From: Bacilli bacterium
GTDB taxonomy: Bacteria; Bacillota; Bacilli; RF39; UBA660
Reading direction: 5' to 3'
Assembly (NCBI GenBank): GCA_017525015.1
Contig: JAFXUK010000023.1
Location: 1-64,000, forward strand
DNA length: 64,000 nt
The notes beneath the pieces are model-generated. The model did not search any database, had not been told where the DNA came from, and saw only the letters and a program-made list of their open reading frames with translations. Below, piece by piece: positions 22,369 through 37,582 of the stretch. Position 1 is the first letter of the stretch. Every line of letters begins with the position of its first letter. A program made the translations under genes and the position numbers.

Positions 22369-23535
22369 GTGTCAACAATATTAATGGATAAAAAAGAAGA
22401 AACCATTATGAAATTAGTTCATTACTTTATTACCGAAGAAAACTATAATCCAATTATTGTTAACGGTGTTAAAGATGAAATATGGTTGGAAAACAGTGAC
22501 GGACCATACCGTATTGTTAGAATCAACTCTAATAACATATTTAATGAAGAACAATTAAATTATGATTATTATAAAATTAATAGTATTGTAAAACAAATAA
22601 AGAAAAAGACTTTTTCTTTTAGAGTTAATACTTTAAATATATTATTAAATGTTAATGAAGATTTAAATGTTGAAGCAACTAAAAATATTCAACCAGCTAT
22701 CATTGTTAATTCAGAAGATGGAAACTTAAATGTAACTGATAAAAATATTCTAGAAGCTTTCCCTAACATTAATGAAAAACTACTTGCTAATAGAACAGGT
22801 GTTGATTTAATTATTAATGTTACAAAAGATATAAATGAAAAAACTGAAAAAGAAAATAAATCATTTGAAAGAACTTTCAAACCTAAAAAGATTATCTTTA
22901 CTCACTTAATAATGGCTATATGCTTTATTATGTTTGGGGTAACAGCTTTATTTGATGGTTTAGATGCTTTACTTAGTGTTAATACTGTAACAGTTTTAAA
23001 ACTAGGTGCTAACTGGGCTCCATTATTAAAGGGTGGAGAAGTATGGCGACTTATTTCTTACATGTTCCTACATGCAGGAATAATTCATTTAATGATTAAT
23101 ATGTATTCCTTACTTATTTTAGGAACACAAACAGAAACCTTCATCGGTAAATGGAAATTCCTAGTTATATATTTAGTAAGTGGAATATGTGGTGGATTGA
23201 TGTCATCTGCATTAGATCCAAACGTATCTATTGGTGCATCTGGTGCTATCTTTGGTTTAACTGGATCACTATTATACTTTGGCTATCATTATCGTAACTA
23301 TTTAGGAGCAGCTTTACGTAACCAAATAATACCTGTTATTATAATCAACTTACTTATTGGTTATATGACTCCTAATATAGATAACTGGTGCCATATCGGT
23401 GGTCTAATAGGAGGATTCCTAATTACTATGGCAGTTGGTGTAGATGGTAAGTCTAAACCATCTGAAAGAATTAATGGTGCAATATGTTTATTATTGTACA
23501 TGGGATTCTTTGCATATTTGATATTCTTTAGATAG
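22369..23535 (+). CDS. rhomboid-family intramembrane serine protease with soluble N-domain
   Basis: 388 residues. About 170 soluble N-terminal residues precede six to seven membrane helices. WRLISYMFLHAGIIHLMINM contains the conserved loop-1 Trp-Arg and His/Asn; the catalytic pair is Ser291 in GASGAIFG and His342 in HIGGLIGG. The architecture resembles Bacillus GluP (YqgP). GTG start behind a very strong GAGGAGGAG site. Confidence 0.9.
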   Translation: MSTILMDKKEETIMKLVHYFITEENYNPIIVNGVKDEIWLENSDGPYRIVRINSNNIFNEEQLNYDYYKINSIVKQIKKKTFSFRVNTLNILLNVNEDLNVEATKNIQPAIIVNSEDGNLNVTDKNILEAFPNINEKLLANRTGVDLIINVTKDINEKTEKENKSFERTFKPKKIIFTHLIMAICFIMFGVTALFDGLDALLSVNTVTVLKLGANWAPLLKGGEVWRLISYMFLHAGIIHLMINMYSLLILGTQTETFIGKWKFLVIYLVSGICGGLMSSALDPNVSIGASGAIFGLTGSLLYFGYHYRNYLGAALRNQIIPVIIINLLIGYMTPNIDNWCHIGGLIGGFLITMAVGVDGKSKPSERINGAICLLLYMGFFAYLIFFR

Positions 23536-23555
23536 GATTAAATCCTATCTTTTTT
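23529..23555 (+). terminator. intrinsic terminator
   Basis: GATAGGATT/AATCCTATC plus T-run overlapping the rhomboid stop codon. Confidence 0.85.
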
Positions 23556-23562
23556 ATTGCAC

Positions 23563-23587
23563 TAAAAAAAGTACTAAATAGTACTTT
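23563..23587 (-). terminator. lexA terminator (minus strand)
   Basis: Read on the minus strand: AAAGTAC/GTACTTT followed by TTTT. Confidence 0.75.
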
Positions 23588-23605
23588 CTTAGCTTTTTCT
23601 TCCTC

Positions 23606-24229
23606 TTATAAACTTCTATATAATCCAATTGCCTTACCTAAAATAACACAGTTTTGTAAAATAATTGGATCCATTGTATCATTCTCAGGTTGTAATCTAA
23701 TATGATCTTTTTCCTTATAGAATGTTTTTAATGTAACTTCATTATCATCAGTCATTGCTACAACAATATCACCATTACGAGCAACATTTTGTTTTTGAAC
23801 AATAACTACATCTCCATCATAGATACCAACATTTATCATTGATTCACCAGTACACTCTAAAGTAAATATTGTTTCTCTACTAGGAATCAAACTAGCTGGT
23901 AATGTAAACCATTCAGATGGATTTTCAATTGCTTCTATTGGATTACCACAGGCTACTTTACCAAGTAGGGGAACTTTAACAAGTTCAGGGTCATCCTTTT
24001 GCGCAAATTCATTTTCACCAACGATTTCAATAGTTCTAAATTTTGAATTAGTCTTTCTAATACAACCTGCGTCCTCTAGTTTTTTTAAATGAGTATGTAC
24101 AGTAGCAGGAGATGAAAGACCAAGCGCAGCCCCAATTTCTCTTGTTGAAGGTGGGAATCCATGATCTACAACATATTTCTTAATATACTGTAAAACATCC
24201 TCTTGTCTTTTAGTAATATTCTTCTCCAT
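23606..24229 (-). CDS. lexA: LexA SOS repressor
   Basis: 207 residues. The N-terminal winged helix has FPPSTREIGAALGLSSPATVHTHL. The C-terminal self-cleaving peptidase has Ser130 in CTGESM and Lys168 in EVTLKTF. The cleavage site reads VACGNP, so the scissile bond would be Cys94-Gly95 instead of the usual Ala-Gly; Cys-Gly is the natural site in UmuD, so autocleavage is still expected. Divergent from a small SOS gene, with LexA-type boxes in the shared region. Confidence 0.95.
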   Translation of the reverse strand: MEKNITKRQEDVLQYIKKYVVDHGFPPSTREIGAALGLSSPATVHTHLKKLEDAGCIRKTNSKFRTIEIVGENEFAQKDDPELVKVPLLGKVACGNPIEAIENPSEWFTLPASLIPSRETIFTLECTGESMINVGIYDGDVVIVQKQNVARNGDIVVAMTDDNEVTLKTFYKEKDHIRLQPENDTMDPIILQNCVILGKAIGLYRSL

Positions 24230-24246
24230 AACTTACCTCCAAACTC

Positions 24247-24275
24247 ATCTTAACATAGTTGATGTAAAATGTCAA
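24247..24275 (-). promoter_or_regulatory. lexA promoter (minus strand)
   Basis: On the minus strand TTGACA (complement of 24270-24275), 17-base spacer, TAAGAT (complement of 24247-24252). Confidence 0.75.
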
Positions 24276-24285
24276 ACAAATGTTT
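24274..24285. promoter_or_regulatory. candidate LexA operator overlapping the lexA -35
   Basis: Palindrome-like AAACAAATGTTT fits a degenerate GAAC-N4-GTTC box and overlaps the lexA -35 hexamer. The same 12-mer, reversed, occurs in the rarA promoter at 36208. Confidence 0.5.
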
Positions 24286-24295
24286 TGTTTTGCTG

Positions 24296-24324
24296 TTGAC
24301 ACGAATAATTGTTCGTAGTATGAT
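24296..24324 (+). promoter_or_regulatory. SOS-type promoter of the 44-residue gene
   Basis: Perfect TTGACA (24296-24301), 17-base spacer, TATGAT (24319-24324). Confidence 0.8.
24302..24315. promoter_or_regulatory. LexA operator (SOS box)
   Basis: CGAATAATTGTTCG matches the Gram-positive CGAAC-N4-GTTCG box with one mismatch and sits exactly between the -35 and -10 of the divergent gene, an ideal repression site. Confidence 0.85.
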
Positions 24325-24358
24325 TAATACAGGTAAAAGGAAAGAGAAAGGTGAGATT

Positions 24359-24493
24359 ATGAGAAAAGAAATGATTCAAAACTTAGCAGGAGTTGTTCTA
24401 TTTTACTTAATTATTGTTTTAGGCGTAATTGCTGTAAATGCTAGAATGGAACAAACACAGGATATGAATCCTGTCGTCTCACTAAACGGGTAA
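24359..24493 (+). CDS. SOS-induced small membrane protein (44 residues), YneA-position gene
   Basis: 44 residues: a short polar N-terminus, one membrane helix (about residues 10-27: GVVLFYLIIVLGVIAVNA), and a 15-residue polar tail ending SLNG. AAAGGTGAG precedes the ATG. The SOS promoter starts transcription near 24331, which excludes longer in-frame starts. It stands divergent from lexA, where Bacillus has the division inhibitor yneA, but lacks the LysM domain of YneA. By position and size it could be an SOS division inhibitor in the style of YneA or Caulobacter SidA/DidA; this is inference. Its own terminator follows at once. Confidence 0.75.
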   Translation: MRKEMIQNLAGVVLFYLIIVLGVIAVNARMEQTQDMNPVVSLNG

Positions 24494-24516
24494 TATCAGG
24501 CAACTGATATTTTTCT
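24491..24516 (+). terminator. intrinsic terminator
   Basis: AATATCAG/CTGATATT with GCAA loop and T-run; begins within the stop codon of the SOS gene. Confidence 0.85.
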
Positions 24517-24517
24517 T

Positions 24518-24546
24518 TTGAAATTAACTCCTATTTGTATTAAAAT
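24518..24546 (+). promoter_or_regulatory. sigmaA-type promoter
   Basis: TTGAAA (24518-24523), 17-base spacer, TAAAAT (24541-24546). Confidence 0.75.
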
Positions 24547-24566
24547 TATAATAGAGGGTGGTATAT

Positions 24567-25010
24567 ATGAAAAAGAAATTTATAATCATATTATTAATCT
24601 TAATATTATTAACTGGTTGTGGAAAAAATAATGATGCTAAAAAAGGAATCAATGCTCCAGAAGAAATCGAACAAAATGTATTCGAGTATTTAATTAAACA
24701 AAACTTTATTAGCGAAGAAAGAATATCTAAATTTGAAATAACTAAAATTTATAAAAAAGGATTTTATAAAACTAATAAGAATGTTTATTACTTACAATTC
24801 TATTGTACTTATGAATGTCAAGATGGAACAGATTCATGTATTTTAAATAATACATCAGATTCTATTATTAACAGATGGTTATCTAAAACAGATAATGAAG
24901 ACTATACATTTTATTTAGAATATGATGTAAAAAATGATAAAGTAATTGGAAGAAGAGGAGCTTACGGAAAAGACTCTGAATTTAAACAAGCTGACGAAGT
25001 TATAAAATGA
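24567..25010 (+). CDS. small lipoprotein
   Basis: 147 residues with a lipoprotein signal peptide (KKKFIIILLILILLTGC, Cys17 lipidated). The mature part is a small domain with a possible disulfide pair (CTYEC) and another Cys in DSCIL. The true start is ATG 24567; a GTG nine bases earlier lies in the ribosome-binding site. Function unknown. Confidence 0.75.
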   Translation: MKKKFIIILLILILLTGCGKNNDAKKGINAPEEIEQNVFEYLIKQNFISEERISKFEITKIYKKGFYKTNKNVYYLQFYCTYECQDGTDSCILNNTSDSIINRWLSKTDNEDYTFYLEYDVKNDKVIGRRGAYGKDSEFKQADEVIK

Positions 25011-25036
25011 TATAGATAAAATATATCATTTTTTCT
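25004..25036 (+). terminator. terminator overlapping a stop codon
   Basis: AAAATGATATA/TATATCATTTT with T-run; the TGA stop lies in the 5' arm. Confidence 0.85.
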
Positions 25037-25052
25037 TTTGGAAATATTATAG

Positions 25053-25058
25053 TATAAT
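25053..25058 (+). promoter_or_regulatory. -10 box
   Basis: TATAAT 21 bases before the glycosyltransferase start; no clear -35 besides the upstream T-run. Confidence 0.45.
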
Positions 25059-25079
25059 AAAGTTGGTGAGGTTATATAT

Positions 25080-26222
25080 ATGAAAAAAAGAATATTATTA
25101 ACATATGCTACATATGGTAATGGCCATCGAGCTGTTGCTGAATATATAGAATCATACTTTAAAAAACAAGATCCTGAATTAGAGATTTTAGCAATCGATT
25201 TACTTATGTATTCAACTCCTATCTTAGGAGCTTTAACTCGTAAAACAACAGATTTCTTTTTACTAAAGTTTCCTTTTGGTTGGTCTAGAATATATAATTC
25301 TTTTAATCATCGTATTAGTGGGGCTTGGGCAAGAAAAAATGGCTTTAAAATGTTTAAGAATAAAAGAATGAAAAAAATAATAACTGACTTTAATCCCGAT
25401 ATGACAATATCTACTCATTTCTTTGGTAGTGCGTTAATCGATTACTATAATCGTAAACATGTTACTAATAGTAAACTAATTACTGTTGTTACCGATTATG
25501 AAGCTCATGCTTTATGGTTAAGTGGTTATAAAAGAGAAGATGCTATGGTTGTAGCAGATAAAGACGAAGTCAATTACCTTGTTAAAAAAGGTGTTCAAAG
25601 AAGAAAGATTAAACCTATTGGTATTCCAATAAATCCAACTACTGACGAATCATTTAATGTAATAGAAGCAACTGAAAAATATGGTTTCTCTGGTGTTAGA
25701 CCAATTTGTTTATTCTTTGGTGGTGGCGGAAATGGTGGAACTCATTCCTTACCATATATTCGTAAATTAATTAAAAGTAATTTAAATATGGATTTTATAT
25801 ATGTTGCTGGTAAACATGAAAACTCTAAGAAAAAAGTTGATAAATGGATTCAAGAATATGGCGCTAAAAACTTTAGAACATATGGCTTTGTTAATAATGT
25901 TCCTGAGTTACTTCAAATATGTGACTTTGTTGTTTCTAAACCAGGTGGTGCACAAACAACTGAATGTCTATATTTTAAAAAACCAATTCTGATGATTAAT
26001 TGTAGTGGTGGTCAAGAAGCAGCTAATACTAAATACTTTGTTAGAAATGGCTATGGTAAAAGATTTAGAGCACCATATACTTTCTACAAATATATGGAAC
26101 ACATATCAACACATCCTGAAGAAATAGAAGAAATGAAAGAAAACATGGCTAAGAGTAAAAATCATAAAGCTATGGAAAAATTATATAAGATTGCGGTCGA
26201 TATTTTAAAGAAAGGGGAATGA
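25080..26222 (+). CDS. GT28 processive diacylglycerol glycosyltransferase (UgtP/MGDG synthase type)
   Basis: 380 residues. The N-terminus YATYGNGHRAVAEYI is the acceptor-domain signature of MGDG synthase-like enzymes; FFGGGGNGG and VSKPGGAQTTECLYFKKP with NCSGGQEAAN form the sugar-nucleotide site of the GT-B fold. It likely makes glycosyl-diacylglycerol from UDP-hexose at the inner membrane face, for membrane balance or as a teichoic-acid anchor. The sugar is not predictable. First gene of a three-gene operon. Confidence 0.85.
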   Translation: MKKRILLTYATYGNGHRAVAEYIESYFKKQDPELEILAIDLLMYSTPILGALTRKTTDFFLLKFPFGWSRIYNSFNHRISGAWARKNGFKMFKNKRMKKIITDFNPDMTISTHFFGSALIDYYNRKHVTNSKLITVVTDYEAHALWLSGYKREDAMVVADKDEVNYLVKKGVQRRKIKPIGIPINPTTDESFNVIEATEKYGFSGVRPICLFFGGGGNGGTHSLPYIRKLIKSNLNMDFIYVAGKHENSKKKVDKWIQEYGAKNFRTYGFVNNVPELLQICDFVVSKPGGAQTTECLYFKKPILMINCSGGQEAANTKYFVRNGYGKRFRAPYTFYKYMEHISTHPEEIEEMKENMAKSKNHKAMEKLYKIAVDILKKGE

Positions 26223-27245: not shown

Positions 27246-29219
27246 ATGAACCCTGATTTAGTTCATTCCCTTAACAGTTTAAAAATATTAAGTGTAGATA
27301 TGATTCAATATGCTAAGAGTGGAAACTCTGGTATTGCTTTAGGTGCAGCACCTATTGTTTTTGATGTCTTTACTAATCATTTAAGAATTAAACCAGATGA
27401 TCCTACATGGCCAAACAGAGATAGATTTGTTATGTCAGCAGGGCATGGTTCAGCTCTTTTATATGCAATGATGTTTATGGCTGGTTATGATATTTCTATA
27501 GATGACTTAGTAGATTATCGTAAATTAGATTCTAAAACTCCAGCATATCCAGAGTATCGTAGAACTCCTGGTATTGAAGCAACAACTGGACCATTAGGTC
27601 AAGGATTTGCTATGGCAGTTGGTATGGCTTTAGCAGGTAAGTATACTGGTGCTTTAGTTGAAGAACAAGTACCAAAACAAAGATTAGTAGATTACTATGT
27701 ATATTGCTTAGTATCTGATGGTGATTTACAAGAAGGTATTACTTGGGAAGCAGCATCATTTGCTGGTACGCATAGTTTAAATAATTTAATCGTTTTATAT
27801 GATTCTAATGCTACTACTTCCGATGGCGAATTAAAATTATCAGCTAATGAATCAATAATTCAAAAATTCATCCATATGGGTTGGGAAGTAGATTACGTTT
27901 CTGAAGGTAACGATGTTAGAGAAATCGATAAAGCTATCGATAGAGCTAAGATAAATAGAAAACCTACATTAATTGAAATTCAAACAACTATTGGTAAAGG
28001 TTCTCAACATGAAGGTAAGAGTTTAATTCATGCTACACCTTTAACTAGAGAAGATATGGCTTTCGTTCGTAAGAGTTTAAATATAACTACAAATACTCTA
28101 GAAATAACTGAAAATGCTGTTAAATATGTTCGTCAAGCAATTGCTAATAGAGTTAATACCTATTACAACAATTGGCAAAGTTTATATAAAGAAACACTAA
28201 ATAGTACTAATGAAGCTTTAAAAACAATTGCGACATTCTTACAAGATGGAGAACCAAAAATATCATTTAGTTCTACAGCATTTAAAATTCCTGGAGATTA
28301 TAATGAAGAATTAAGAGAATCAAATTCTAAAATGTTAAATATTGTTAGTGATAGAAGTAAATTCTTCTTAGGAGGAAGTTGTGATTTAGCAAGCTTCTGT
28401 CATACATCATTATATAAAGAATCAGATATGTCACGTCGTAATAGAACTGGTAAAAATATTAGTTTTGGACTTCGTGAACATGGTATGGCAGGTATTATGA
28501 ATGGAATGGCCTTATGTGGGCTAAGAGTATATGGATCAACATTCCTAGTTTATGCTGACTATATGAAACCAGCTATTCGTATGGCTTGTATGATGAACTT
28601 ACCAGTAACATATGTATTCACATATGACTCAATATCAATTGGTGATGATGGACCAACAGTTGCTCCAGTAGAACAACTTGAAATGTTAAGAGCAATTCCT
28701 AATTTAACTGTATTTAGACCAGCTGATATCAATGAAGTAATTGGTTGCTGGGATTATATAATAAATAATAAAAAACCAGTTGCTATTGTTTTATCTAAAG
28801 ATGATGCTCATATCTTAGATGGAACTGTCGCTGAAGAAGTTAAAAAAGGTGCTTACATAGTTAAAAAAGAACAAGAAAGATTAGACGGTGTTGTAATTGG
28901 TACAGGTCTTGATTTCACAACTGCTTACTTAATATGTGAAGAATTAAGAGCTAAAGGTCATGACTTAAGAGTAGTATCAATGCCATCAGTAGAATTATTT
29001 AATAATCAAACTAAAGAATACAAAGATAGTGTTATTCCTCCTGGAACAAAAGTATTTACTATTGAAGCTGGTACAACAAACGCTTGGTATCGTTTTGCAT
29101 CACCTGGTTGTGCAATTGGTGTCGATTGGTATGGCTATAGTGGAGATCGAGATGCTGTCTTACAAAAACTAGGTTTTGATTATGAATCAATTCTTAAGAA
29201 AATAGAAGAAAAACTATAA
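27246..29219 (+). CDS. tkt: transketolase
   Basis: 657 residues, full length. It moves two-carbon units in the non-oxidative pentose phosphate pathway using thiamine diphosphate. Visible are the ThDP motif SDGDLQEGITWEA...LIVLYDSN, GPLGQG, GLREHGMAG with the catalytic Glu, and the C-terminal domain (VVSMPSVELFNNQ). It precedes yneF as in Bacillus. Confidence 0.95.
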   Translation: MNPDLVHSLNSLKILSVDMIQYAKSGNSGIALGAAPIVFDVFTNHLRIKPDDPTWPNRDRFVMSAGHGSALLYAMMFMAGYDISIDDLVDYRKLDSKTPAYPEYRRTPGIEATTGPLGQGFAMAVGMALAGKYTGALVEEQVPKQRLVDYYVYCLVSDGDLQEGITWEAASFAGTHSLNNLIVLYDSNATTSDGELKLSANESIIQKFIHMGWEVDYVSEGNDVREIDKAIDRAKINRKPTLIEIQTTIGKGSQHEGKSLIHATPLTREDMAFVRKSLNITTNTLEITENAVKYVRQAIANRVNTYYNNWQSLYKETLNSTNEALKTIATFLQDGEPKISFSSTAFKIPGDYNEELRESNSKMLNIVSDRSKFFLGGSCDLASFCHTSLYKESDMSRRNRTGKNISFGLREHGMAGIMNGMALCGLRVYGSTFLVYADYMKPAIRMACMMNLPVTYVFTYDSISIGDDGPTVAPVEQLEMLRAIPNLTVFRPADINEVIGCWDYIINNKKPVAIVLSKDDAHILDGTVAEEVKKGAYIVKKEQERLDGVVIGTGLDFTTAYLICEELRAKGHDLRVVSMPSVELFNNQTKEYKDSVIPPGTKVFTIEAGTTNAWYRFASPGCAIGVDWYGYSGDRDAVLQKLGFDYESILKKIEEKL

Positions 29220-36204: not shown

Positions 36205-36231
36205 TGCAAACATTTGTTTATATAGTATAAT
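36204..36231 (+). promoter_or_regulatory. rarA promoter with LexA-like palindrome
   Basis: TTGCAA (36204-36209), 16-base spacer, TATAAT (36226-36231). AAACATTTGTTT (36208-36219), the reverse complement of the 12-mer at the lexA -35, lies between the boxes. Confidence 0.6.
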
Positions 36232-36247: not shown

Positions 36248-37582
36248 ATGAAAGATTTATTTGATACCGAAGAAAATACAATTTATAAACCATTAGCAGA
36301 TAGATTAAGACCTAAAACATTAGAAGAATTTGTTGGTCAAGAAGATATAGTTGGTAAACAAAGTCCTTTATATCAAATGATTGAAAGTGACAACATTACT
36401 TCTATGATATTCTGGGGTCCTCCAGGAGTAGGTAAAACAACACTTGCTAAAATAATAGCTGAAAAAACTAATTCAGTTTTTCGAAATTTAAGTGCTGTTA
36501 CAAGTGGTGTTAAAGATATCAAAGCTATTATGGATGAAGCTGACTTTAATAAATTAAATGGTCAAAAGACAATTCTTTTTGTTGATGAAATTCATCGTTT
36601 TAATAAAGCTCAACAAGATGCTTTTCTACCATATGTAGAAAACGGTAGTATCATCCTTATTGGAGCTACCACAGAAAATCCTTCTTTTGAAGTTAATTCA
36701 GCCTTACTTTCTCGTTGTAAAGTTTATGTTTTAAATTCTCTTACTGAAGATAATATTAAACAAATAATTAATAGAGCTATTGAAGTAATTAATACAGAGC
36801 ATGATTATGAAGTTACAATTGATGAAGAAAGTTTATCTATTCTAGCCAATCTAAGTAATGGTGATGCTCGTTCTGCTTTAAATACTTTAGAAAACATTTT
36901 AAATATTGTTAAAGTAACTAAAAAGAAAAAAAGTATTACTAAAAAGAGTTTAGAACAATTCTTTAAAGGTAAGATGTATATATATGATAAAAATGGTGAA
37001 GAACACTATAACTTAATATCAGCCTTACATAAATCAATGCGTAATAGTGATCCAGATGCAGCCGTATATTATTTAGCACGTATGCTAGAAGCAGGAGAAG
37101 ATCCTTTATATGTAGCTAGACGTCTTATAAGATTTTCATCTGAAGATGTCGGTCTTGCCAATCCTCAAGCTTTATCTATAGCTAATGCCGCTTATGAAGC
37201 TGCTCATTATATTGGCATGCCAGAGTGCACAGTTAATTTAACCGAAGCTGTAGTTTACTTAAGTGTTTCACCTAAATCTAATTCTTTAGATGTCGCTTAT
37301 ATGAAAGCTGCATCTGATGCCAAAAAAACAGCTCATTTAGGTGTACCATTACATTTACGTAATGCTCCAACAAAATTAATGAGTGAAATAGGTTATGGAG
37401 CTAACTATGAATATTCCCAAGATTATGAAGAAAAAATGACAGATATGGATTGTTTACCAAAAGAATTAATAGGAACTAAATATTACATTCCATCTCGTTT
37501 TGGTAAAGAAAAAGCTATTAGTGAAGAATTAATTCGAATTAAAGAAGTTAAAAATAAAATAAGAAAAAATAAAAGGAAGTGA
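36248..37582 (+). CDS. rarA: replication-associated recombination protein A (RarA/MgsA) AAA+ ATPase
   Basis: 444 residues. It acts at stalled forks. The N-terminal [16 protein letters not shown], Walker A GPPGVGKT (residues 57-64), Walker B with Asp113-Glu114 in [10 protein letters not shown], sensor [12 protein letters not shown], and the C-terminal MgsA tetramerisation region ([12 protein letters not shown]) are all present. Ribosome-binding site AGGTGG. A LexA-like palindrome lies in the promoter. Confidence 0.95.

Follow-up and report, generated by a model that had tools for sequence, protein, structure and literature searches.

What might a LexA-controlled membrane protein of 44 residues do when its gene lies opposite lexA in a Bacilli genome? 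The question is raised by a 64-kb stretch of DNA (64,000 nucleotides; the window herein). An earlier note, made from the sequence alone, had described this small gene as encoding an SOS-controlled membrane protein and a likely new division inhibitor; the span that it gave (24241-24516) also takes in lexA's own promoter and operator. The frame proper (Table 1) reads away from lexA, carries a ribosome-binding site (AGGTGAG) just 5' of its ATG at 24359 and encodes MRKEMIQNLAGVVLFYLIIVLGVIAVNARMEQTQDMNPVVSLNG, 44 residues by translation. A longer frame of 74 amino acids opens at ATG 24269, and the same 74-residue reading appears in some database entries; it starts upstream of the small-gene promoter, which makes its translation very improbable.

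Table 1. Positions of lexA, the small gene, their putative control sites and other features of the window
Feature	Position	Strand	Details
lexA	23606..24229	-	TIGR00498, 220.7 bits (cut-off 110.95)
Second LexA-type site, CAAACAAATGTTTT	24273..24286		Overlaps lexA's own -35; matrix score 14.9
Small-gene promoter	24296..24324	+	TTGACA, 17 nt, TATGAT; score 11/12
LexA-type operator in the small-gene promoter, CGAATAATTGTTCG	24302..24315	+	Matrix score 20.5
Gene for small SOS membrane protein (predicted)	24359..24493	+	ATG 24359, TAA 24491-24493; positional counterpart of yneA/sosA
Small-gene intrinsic terminator	24492..24519	+	Stem 24492-24499/24504-24511, T-rich tail
tkt (transketolase)	27246..29219	+	TIGR00232, 669.4 bits, slightly below curated cut-off 682.25
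Third LexA-type site	36207..36220		In promoter of RarA-like ATPase gene 36248-37582; matrix score 13.98

The promoter consists of TTGACA (24296-24301), CGAATAATTGTTCG (24302-24315), TAG and TATGAT (24319-24324), with the LexA-type operator taking up 14 of the 17 spacer bases between -35 and -10. It is the top scorer of the 19 promoter-like sites between 23000 and 26000, a count that is itself at the level of chance (18.4 expected). The leader is short, running from the -10 at 24324 to the ATG. Downstream, the terminator hairpin has a stability of -9.5 kcal/mol, which was reached in none of 200 shuffles; its stem is poor in G-C, and a scan requiring three G-C pairs did not return this site. A comparable hairpin was seen by eye 3' of the small gene at a related locus (L004).

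The exact pattern CGAA-N6-TTCG occurs once in the 64-kb window, and with up to one mismatch there are 6 matches against 7.4 expected, i.e., chance. We therefore used a 14-base weight matrix, built from 72 small-gene promoters (the window and its relatives, see below), with the consensus CRAACAWWTGTTYG. Only three sites in the 64-kb window score 11 or more: those at the small gene, at lexA and at 36207. Background stretches of 300 nt from the relatives' loci, which are mostly coding DNA, reached 13 or more in 0 of 2,351 cases and 11 or more in 5 of 2,351. A matrix site scoring at least 9 starts 5 to 8 nt past the start of the TTGA in 72 of the 72 small-gene promoters, a figure with some circularity, these promoters being the training set of the matrix; a -10 matching 4/6 or better lies at 16 to 18 nt in 71 of the 72, and a lexA-proximal site scoring at least 9 is present in 69. 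Upstream of recA, where the top-scoring site within 300 bases was taken, a site of at least 14 was found in 16 of 20 genomes (compared to 0 of the 2,351 background stretches), and in all 20 the top site lay 93 to 116 nt upstream of the recA match. When the genomes of four relatives were scanned with the exact pattern, two had no match and the reversed-pattern control gave 2 or 3 matches in each, so the scan was uninformative.

The third site of the window precedes the RarA-like gene, which comes after a deoxyribonuclease IV gene (hmmscan, with matches below the curated cut-offs) and is likely a second SOS target. As sequence evidence, the recA and rarA-like sites constitute support that is independent of the matrix training set. 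The site at 24273-24286 would point to autoregulation of lexA. The LexA box between a perfect TTGACA and a TATGAT, as the earlier note had it, can thus be read directly in the DNA, and its further claims of a membrane-protein gene opposite lexA, of a terminator of the gene's own and of SOS control all hold up, the last of them at the level of the operator and of the recA and rarA-like sites. Taken as sequence, 24359-24493 is very likely a real gene under LexA.

Conservation of the small gene beside lexA

Relatives were collected by a scan with the window's LexA, and the best 80 of 485 provided the loci compared here, which are titled as uncultured or metagenome-assembled Bacilli, Bacillota, Tenericutes, Mollicutes and similar. 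The closest of these 80 is 89% identical, and the next, at 88%, is Candidatus Coprovivens excrementavium. ORFs were accepted if they had 35 to 70 codons, a Shine-Dalgarno match of at least 4, one strongly hydrophobic stretch and a start no more than 260 nt away. Such an ORF was present at 71 of the 80 lexA loci, or 72 of 81 with the window, compared to 6 of 417 other gene starts of these loci, a control set not limited to divergent intergenic regions (Fisher P = 5e-69, kinship ignored). The nine loci without an ORF are L006, L007, L008, L009, L021, L048, L064, L073 and L075; at L006 the contig stops 97 bases before lexA, and the other eight have DNA there. The search for homologues beside lexA that the earlier note had proposed thus found the frame conserved.

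The small gene is under purifying selection: dN/dS was finite for 26 of 27 close pairs and below 1 in every one of these (median, 0.16); the pairs overlap, so they do not count as independent. A profile of the family matched 364 protein clusters at an E value of 0.01 or better; among the 120 clusters listed, the few names were "hypothetical" or otherwise uninformative, and none had a Pfam domain. By profile comparison, subgroups I (which includes the window protein) and III of the small proteins are related (probability 96.6, E value 5e-10; reversed control 2.1). The same comparison did not establish a relation of I to II (14.6; control 1.5) or of II to III (10.9; control 3.3), and subgroup II is tied to the others only by position and build. 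Searches of open-licence literature showed no paper on this protein family among the papers listed.

The gene's surroundings are conserved as well. Among the 80 loci searched, 39 had a tkt match, and in 38 of these tkt is divergent from lexA; a UPF0154 (YneF-type, Pfam) gene is found in 41 of the 41 with a match; the remaining loci had no tkt or UPF0154 match in the DNA covered. This is the gene order around Bacillus lexA, which we take to be lexA-yneA-tkt-yneF, and it makes the small gene the positional counterpart of yneA, a placement that the earlier note had already proposed and that these counts bear out.

In a wider sample of the class, 100 genomes in all, a lexA match exceeded the family cut-off in 26; the 25 best loci were used, three of them already in the first set. 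A rule-fitting ORF was found at 13 of these 25 loci, three being of an unrelated 57-residue kind described below, and was absent at 12, among them L102, which has a hydrophobic frame of 28 residues.

Protein anatomy and known SOS division inhibitors

The 72 small proteins are 42 to 57 residues long (median, 47), with tails of 17 to 27 residues. The side N-terminal to the hydrophobic stretch is net positive in 69 of them and is more positive than the C-terminal side in 66, equal in 3 and less positive in 3, which predicts that the N-terminus is inside. AlphaFold gave the window protein a single helix (residues 2 to 35) and a loose C-terminus (mean pLDDT 83.6, pTM 0.49); such a helix would span the membrane and run on outward. 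In this model, it is predicted to extend about 9 residues beyond the membrane and to be followed by a flexible outer tail of about 18 residues. Hydropathy, charge and AlphaFold thus all predict a single membrane helix with the C-terminus outside, in line with the single-helix protein of the earlier note. Its statement that there is no LysM domain also stands: none was among the Pfam matches of the window protein up to an E value of 1, and the tail is about 18 residues long. The window protein had no Pfam or NCBIfam match above cut-off and none in NCBIfam at E values up to 1, and the small proteins of four relatives had nothing above cut-off in NCBIfam. Weak matches to DUF3169 (E value, 0.07) and TrbK (E value, 0.27) were put down to membrane-helix chance.

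The tails, otherwise divergent, share a hydrophobic patch whose distance from the C-terminus is constant. At the fifth-last position, 85% of the 72 proteins have a hydrophobic residue, compared to 10 to 11% at positions 8 to 10 from the end, and one form of the C-terminal motif, which was defined after inspection of the sequences, ends 37 of the 72 tails, whereas shuffled tails gave a mean of 0.9 and a maximum of 4. The patch is possibly a protease tag or a contact site; polar residues are common at the very end of the 72 tails, which does not resemble a classic tail-protease signal. An outer segment resembling R-[MFIVL]-x-x-[LI] appeared by eye to be common in subgroups I and III but not in II.

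SidA and DidA of Caulobacter belong to another phylum, and their genes are not known to lie beside lexA; ChiZ of Mycobacterium, which has a LysM domain, and DivS of Corynebacterium are larger than the window protein. SidA and DidA are like the window protein in being small membrane proteins and, in the passages that describe them, inhibit late division steps (PMC6851548, PMC13396833); DidA is SOS independent (PMC6851548). ChiZ and DivS share its kind as lexA-linked SOS membrane inhibitors of division (PMC6851548).

The earlier note had seen a likeness in SidA and DidA only, which was wrong. SosA of Staphylococcus aureus, as described in passages of its study, is a lexA-divergent, single-helix, LysM-free protein of 77 amino acids with an extracytoplasmic C-terminus that was shown by experiment to inhibit division, the arrest coming with FtsZ already at midcell (PMC6851548). 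According to the same passages, its activity requires membrane-proximal outer residues; SosA lacking the last 10 residues accumulates and acts more strongly, like wild-type SosA in the absence of CtpA; and conservation is found just outside the membrane and, to some extent, at the extreme C-terminus (PMC6851548). The window protein resembles SosA in position and build, being lexA divergent and apparently SOS controlled, with one predicted N-terminal helix and no LysM domain, and differs in that SosA has 77 residues, a tail over twice the length and a demonstrated division block (PMC6851548). By this analogy, SosA is the closest relative in kind.

YneA of Bacillus subtilis occupies the same chromosomal slot and, as predicted for the small protein, is SOS controlled and has one membrane helix. 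Unlike the window protein, it carries an outer LysM domain that is needed for inhibition (PMC13396833). In the parts of that study used here, the YneA helix binds transmembrane helix 7 (TM7) of FtsW and the LysM domain blocks septal wall synthesis, the helix alone localizing and binding FtsW without inhibition; AlphaFold 3 models of low confidence put SosA, ChiZ and SidA on FtsW TM7 as well (PMC13396833). For recovery from the YneA checkpoint, CtpA and YlbL are described as acting on YneA (PMC6051672). Set beside these systems, the small protein probably belongs to a kind of SOS division inhibitor that is already known, as a new, unusually short and clade-specific member. Of the earlier note's "new" inhibitor, a lineage-specific family remains; the kind was already known from SosA (PMC6851548).

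Proposed function and alternative explanations

With the SosA and YneA literature, the best explanation is that the small protein is induced in the SOS response and, from within the membrane, inhibits division by acting on a SEDS polymerase complex; we assign this a probability of roughly 0.7. Division inhibition as such, which we infer from position and anatomy, is likely; that the target is of the FtsW type has about an even chance, and the YneA study, in the parts cited (PMC13396833), makes FtsL, which the earlier note had named, a less likely target than an FtsW-type polymerase. In undamaged cells, LexA on the operator between -35 and -10 would block the promoter. Upon DNA damage, RecA would prompt LexA self-cleavage, and the small gene would be expressed as its own short message. 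The product is predicted to enter the membrane as one helix, N-terminus inside and flexible tail outside, where it would encounter the septal wall-synthesis complex; as with YneA, its contact there would most likely be a SEDS polymerase of the FtsW type, and septum synthesis would be held up while the DNA is repaired. The arrest would end as LexA repressed the gene again and a CtpA-type protease degraded the protein from its outer C-terminus.

The YneA helix alone does not inhibit, so the roughly 18-residue tail of the small protein must work in some other way. A rather doubtful version of the proposal would have one helix and this tail, as a minimal inhibitor, replace the LysM role of Bacillus, with the C-terminal patch as the working part or as a removal tag and possibly a SpoVE-like SEDS-PBP pair, not canonical FtsW, as the target. 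A division inhibitor of either form would extend the lexA-linked membrane division checkpoint to uncultured Bacilli with genomes of 0.8 to 1.8 Mb (relatives searched), and it would offer dozens of natural minimal versions with which to ask how septum synthesis can be halted by a single helix that lacks a wall-binding domain.

Could the frame be spurious, with no protein made and only the promoter and operator of consequence, for example for the regulation of lexA? The gene falls below the usual annotation size and its sequence differs strongly from subgroup to subgroup, but the recurrence of ORFs with ribosome-binding sites at the lexA loci, the dN/dS values below 1 in every finite pair and the 364 clusters matched by the family profile make this scarcely credible. 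Quite unlikely, too, is an SOS-induced membrane-active peptide of the TisB/DinQ type, which would depolarize or perturb the membrane and slow growth or favor persistence rather than act on the divisome. Its size and SOS control would fit, DinQ being reported as an SOS-regulated toxic single-membrane peptide of Escherichia coli. A minus-strand promoter-like site (24438-24410) and terminator-like site (24474-24457) lie inside the gene and could belong to an antisense RNA, but such sites occur at chance numbers in the region. Against it speak the lack of an Rfam match at E values up to 1 in 23500-25100, the short leader, the outer tail whose C-terminal pattern suggests a protein partner, and the place of the gene in a conserved synteny block under purifying selection; type I toxins have a patchy distribution, unlike the small gene.

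A further alternative concerns the target and is best considered together with the division machinery. FtsW-type, recA and CtpA-type genes were seen in the relatives' genomes, the source organism being represented by the 64-kb window. In keeping with the division-inhibitor reading, the window contains mraZ, mraW and a PASTA PBP gene; the position where ftsL normally lies, between mraW and the PBP gene, is taken by a 102-residue ORF for which no Pfam match was found. SEDS genes were present in 69 of 70 relatives searched and transpeptidase PBPs in 12 of 12 checked. A CtpA-type protease over the cut-off was found in 21 of 25 genomes, 14 of them among the 17 that have the small gene and 7 among the 8 that lack it, and does not track the small gene. 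Most relatives have three SEDS matches, corresponding to three score groups against the ftsW model; the highest group best fits the SpoVE and FtsW models, and the second fits FtsW and then RodA (one example of each). Under the alternative, the protein would be a small SOS membrane regulator of a noncanonical wall pair, e.g., a SpoVE/FtsW-like SEDS protein and its neighbor, a PBP of about 640 residues, or of elongation, which we regard as unlikely. In its favor, the three genomes with the gene-less loci L007 to L009 (G214 to G216) have a single SEDS match (about 266 to 269 bits, in the second group) together with two transpeptidase matches. Of the latter, one has about 707 residues, like the PASTA PBP of the window; no SEDS protein of the highest group and no 640-residue PBP were found in these genomes. 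The remaining SEDS protein and transpeptidases resemble the canonical division pair, and the persistence of this pair without the small gene does not point to it as the target. Of the 70 genomes, 62 have the small gene, and in 58 of these the highest SEDS group was over the cut-off; the same was true of 5 of the 8 genomes that lack it (Fisher P = 0.028, kinship and genome completeness ignored); two of the four exceptions with the gene (L024 and L067) have end fragments of a further SEDS gene. However, the genomes of L007 to L009 are close relatives, probably reflecting one event, and the other five of the eight genomes whose loci (of the 80) lack the gene keep the highest-scoring SEDS group, so that the small gene is dispensable there. 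The SEDS co-loss is suggestive only, as a hint at that pair as the target or as the mark of just one reduced lineage.

In the other nine genomes checked, the transpeptidase matches, which include fragments, numbered five or six; compared to these relatives, the SEDS and transpeptidase counts of L007 to L009 suggest the loss of two wall-synthesis pairs.

Other occupants of the slot and neighboring genes

The preferred reading, an SOS-induced division inhibitor, fits a broader pattern in which the slot beside lexA is retained while the protein inside it is altered beyond recognition. In three larger genomes (L100, L107 and L111), the slot holds a lexA-divergent membrane ORF of 57 residues, which is like the window protein in its place, its short tail and in being too short for a LysM domain but has no detectable sequence relation to it (hhalign probability of <1 against each small-protein subgroup). 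The three ORFs share a conserved C-terminus, PFLEVxAYQxK, and a DUF896 (YnzC-type) gene lies next to each. Their promoters have LexA-like sites, by pattern match in L100 and by eye in L107 and L111.

Two neighbors of the small gene in the window were also noted. A gene at 24567-25010 for a lipoprotein-like small protein lies between it and a gene for an MGDG-synthase/MurG-like glycosyltransferase (25080-26222). Homologues of the latter are found divergent from lexA, 112 to 428 nt from its start, in 18 of the 80 loci, and in L007 to L009 the homologue directly adjoins lexA.
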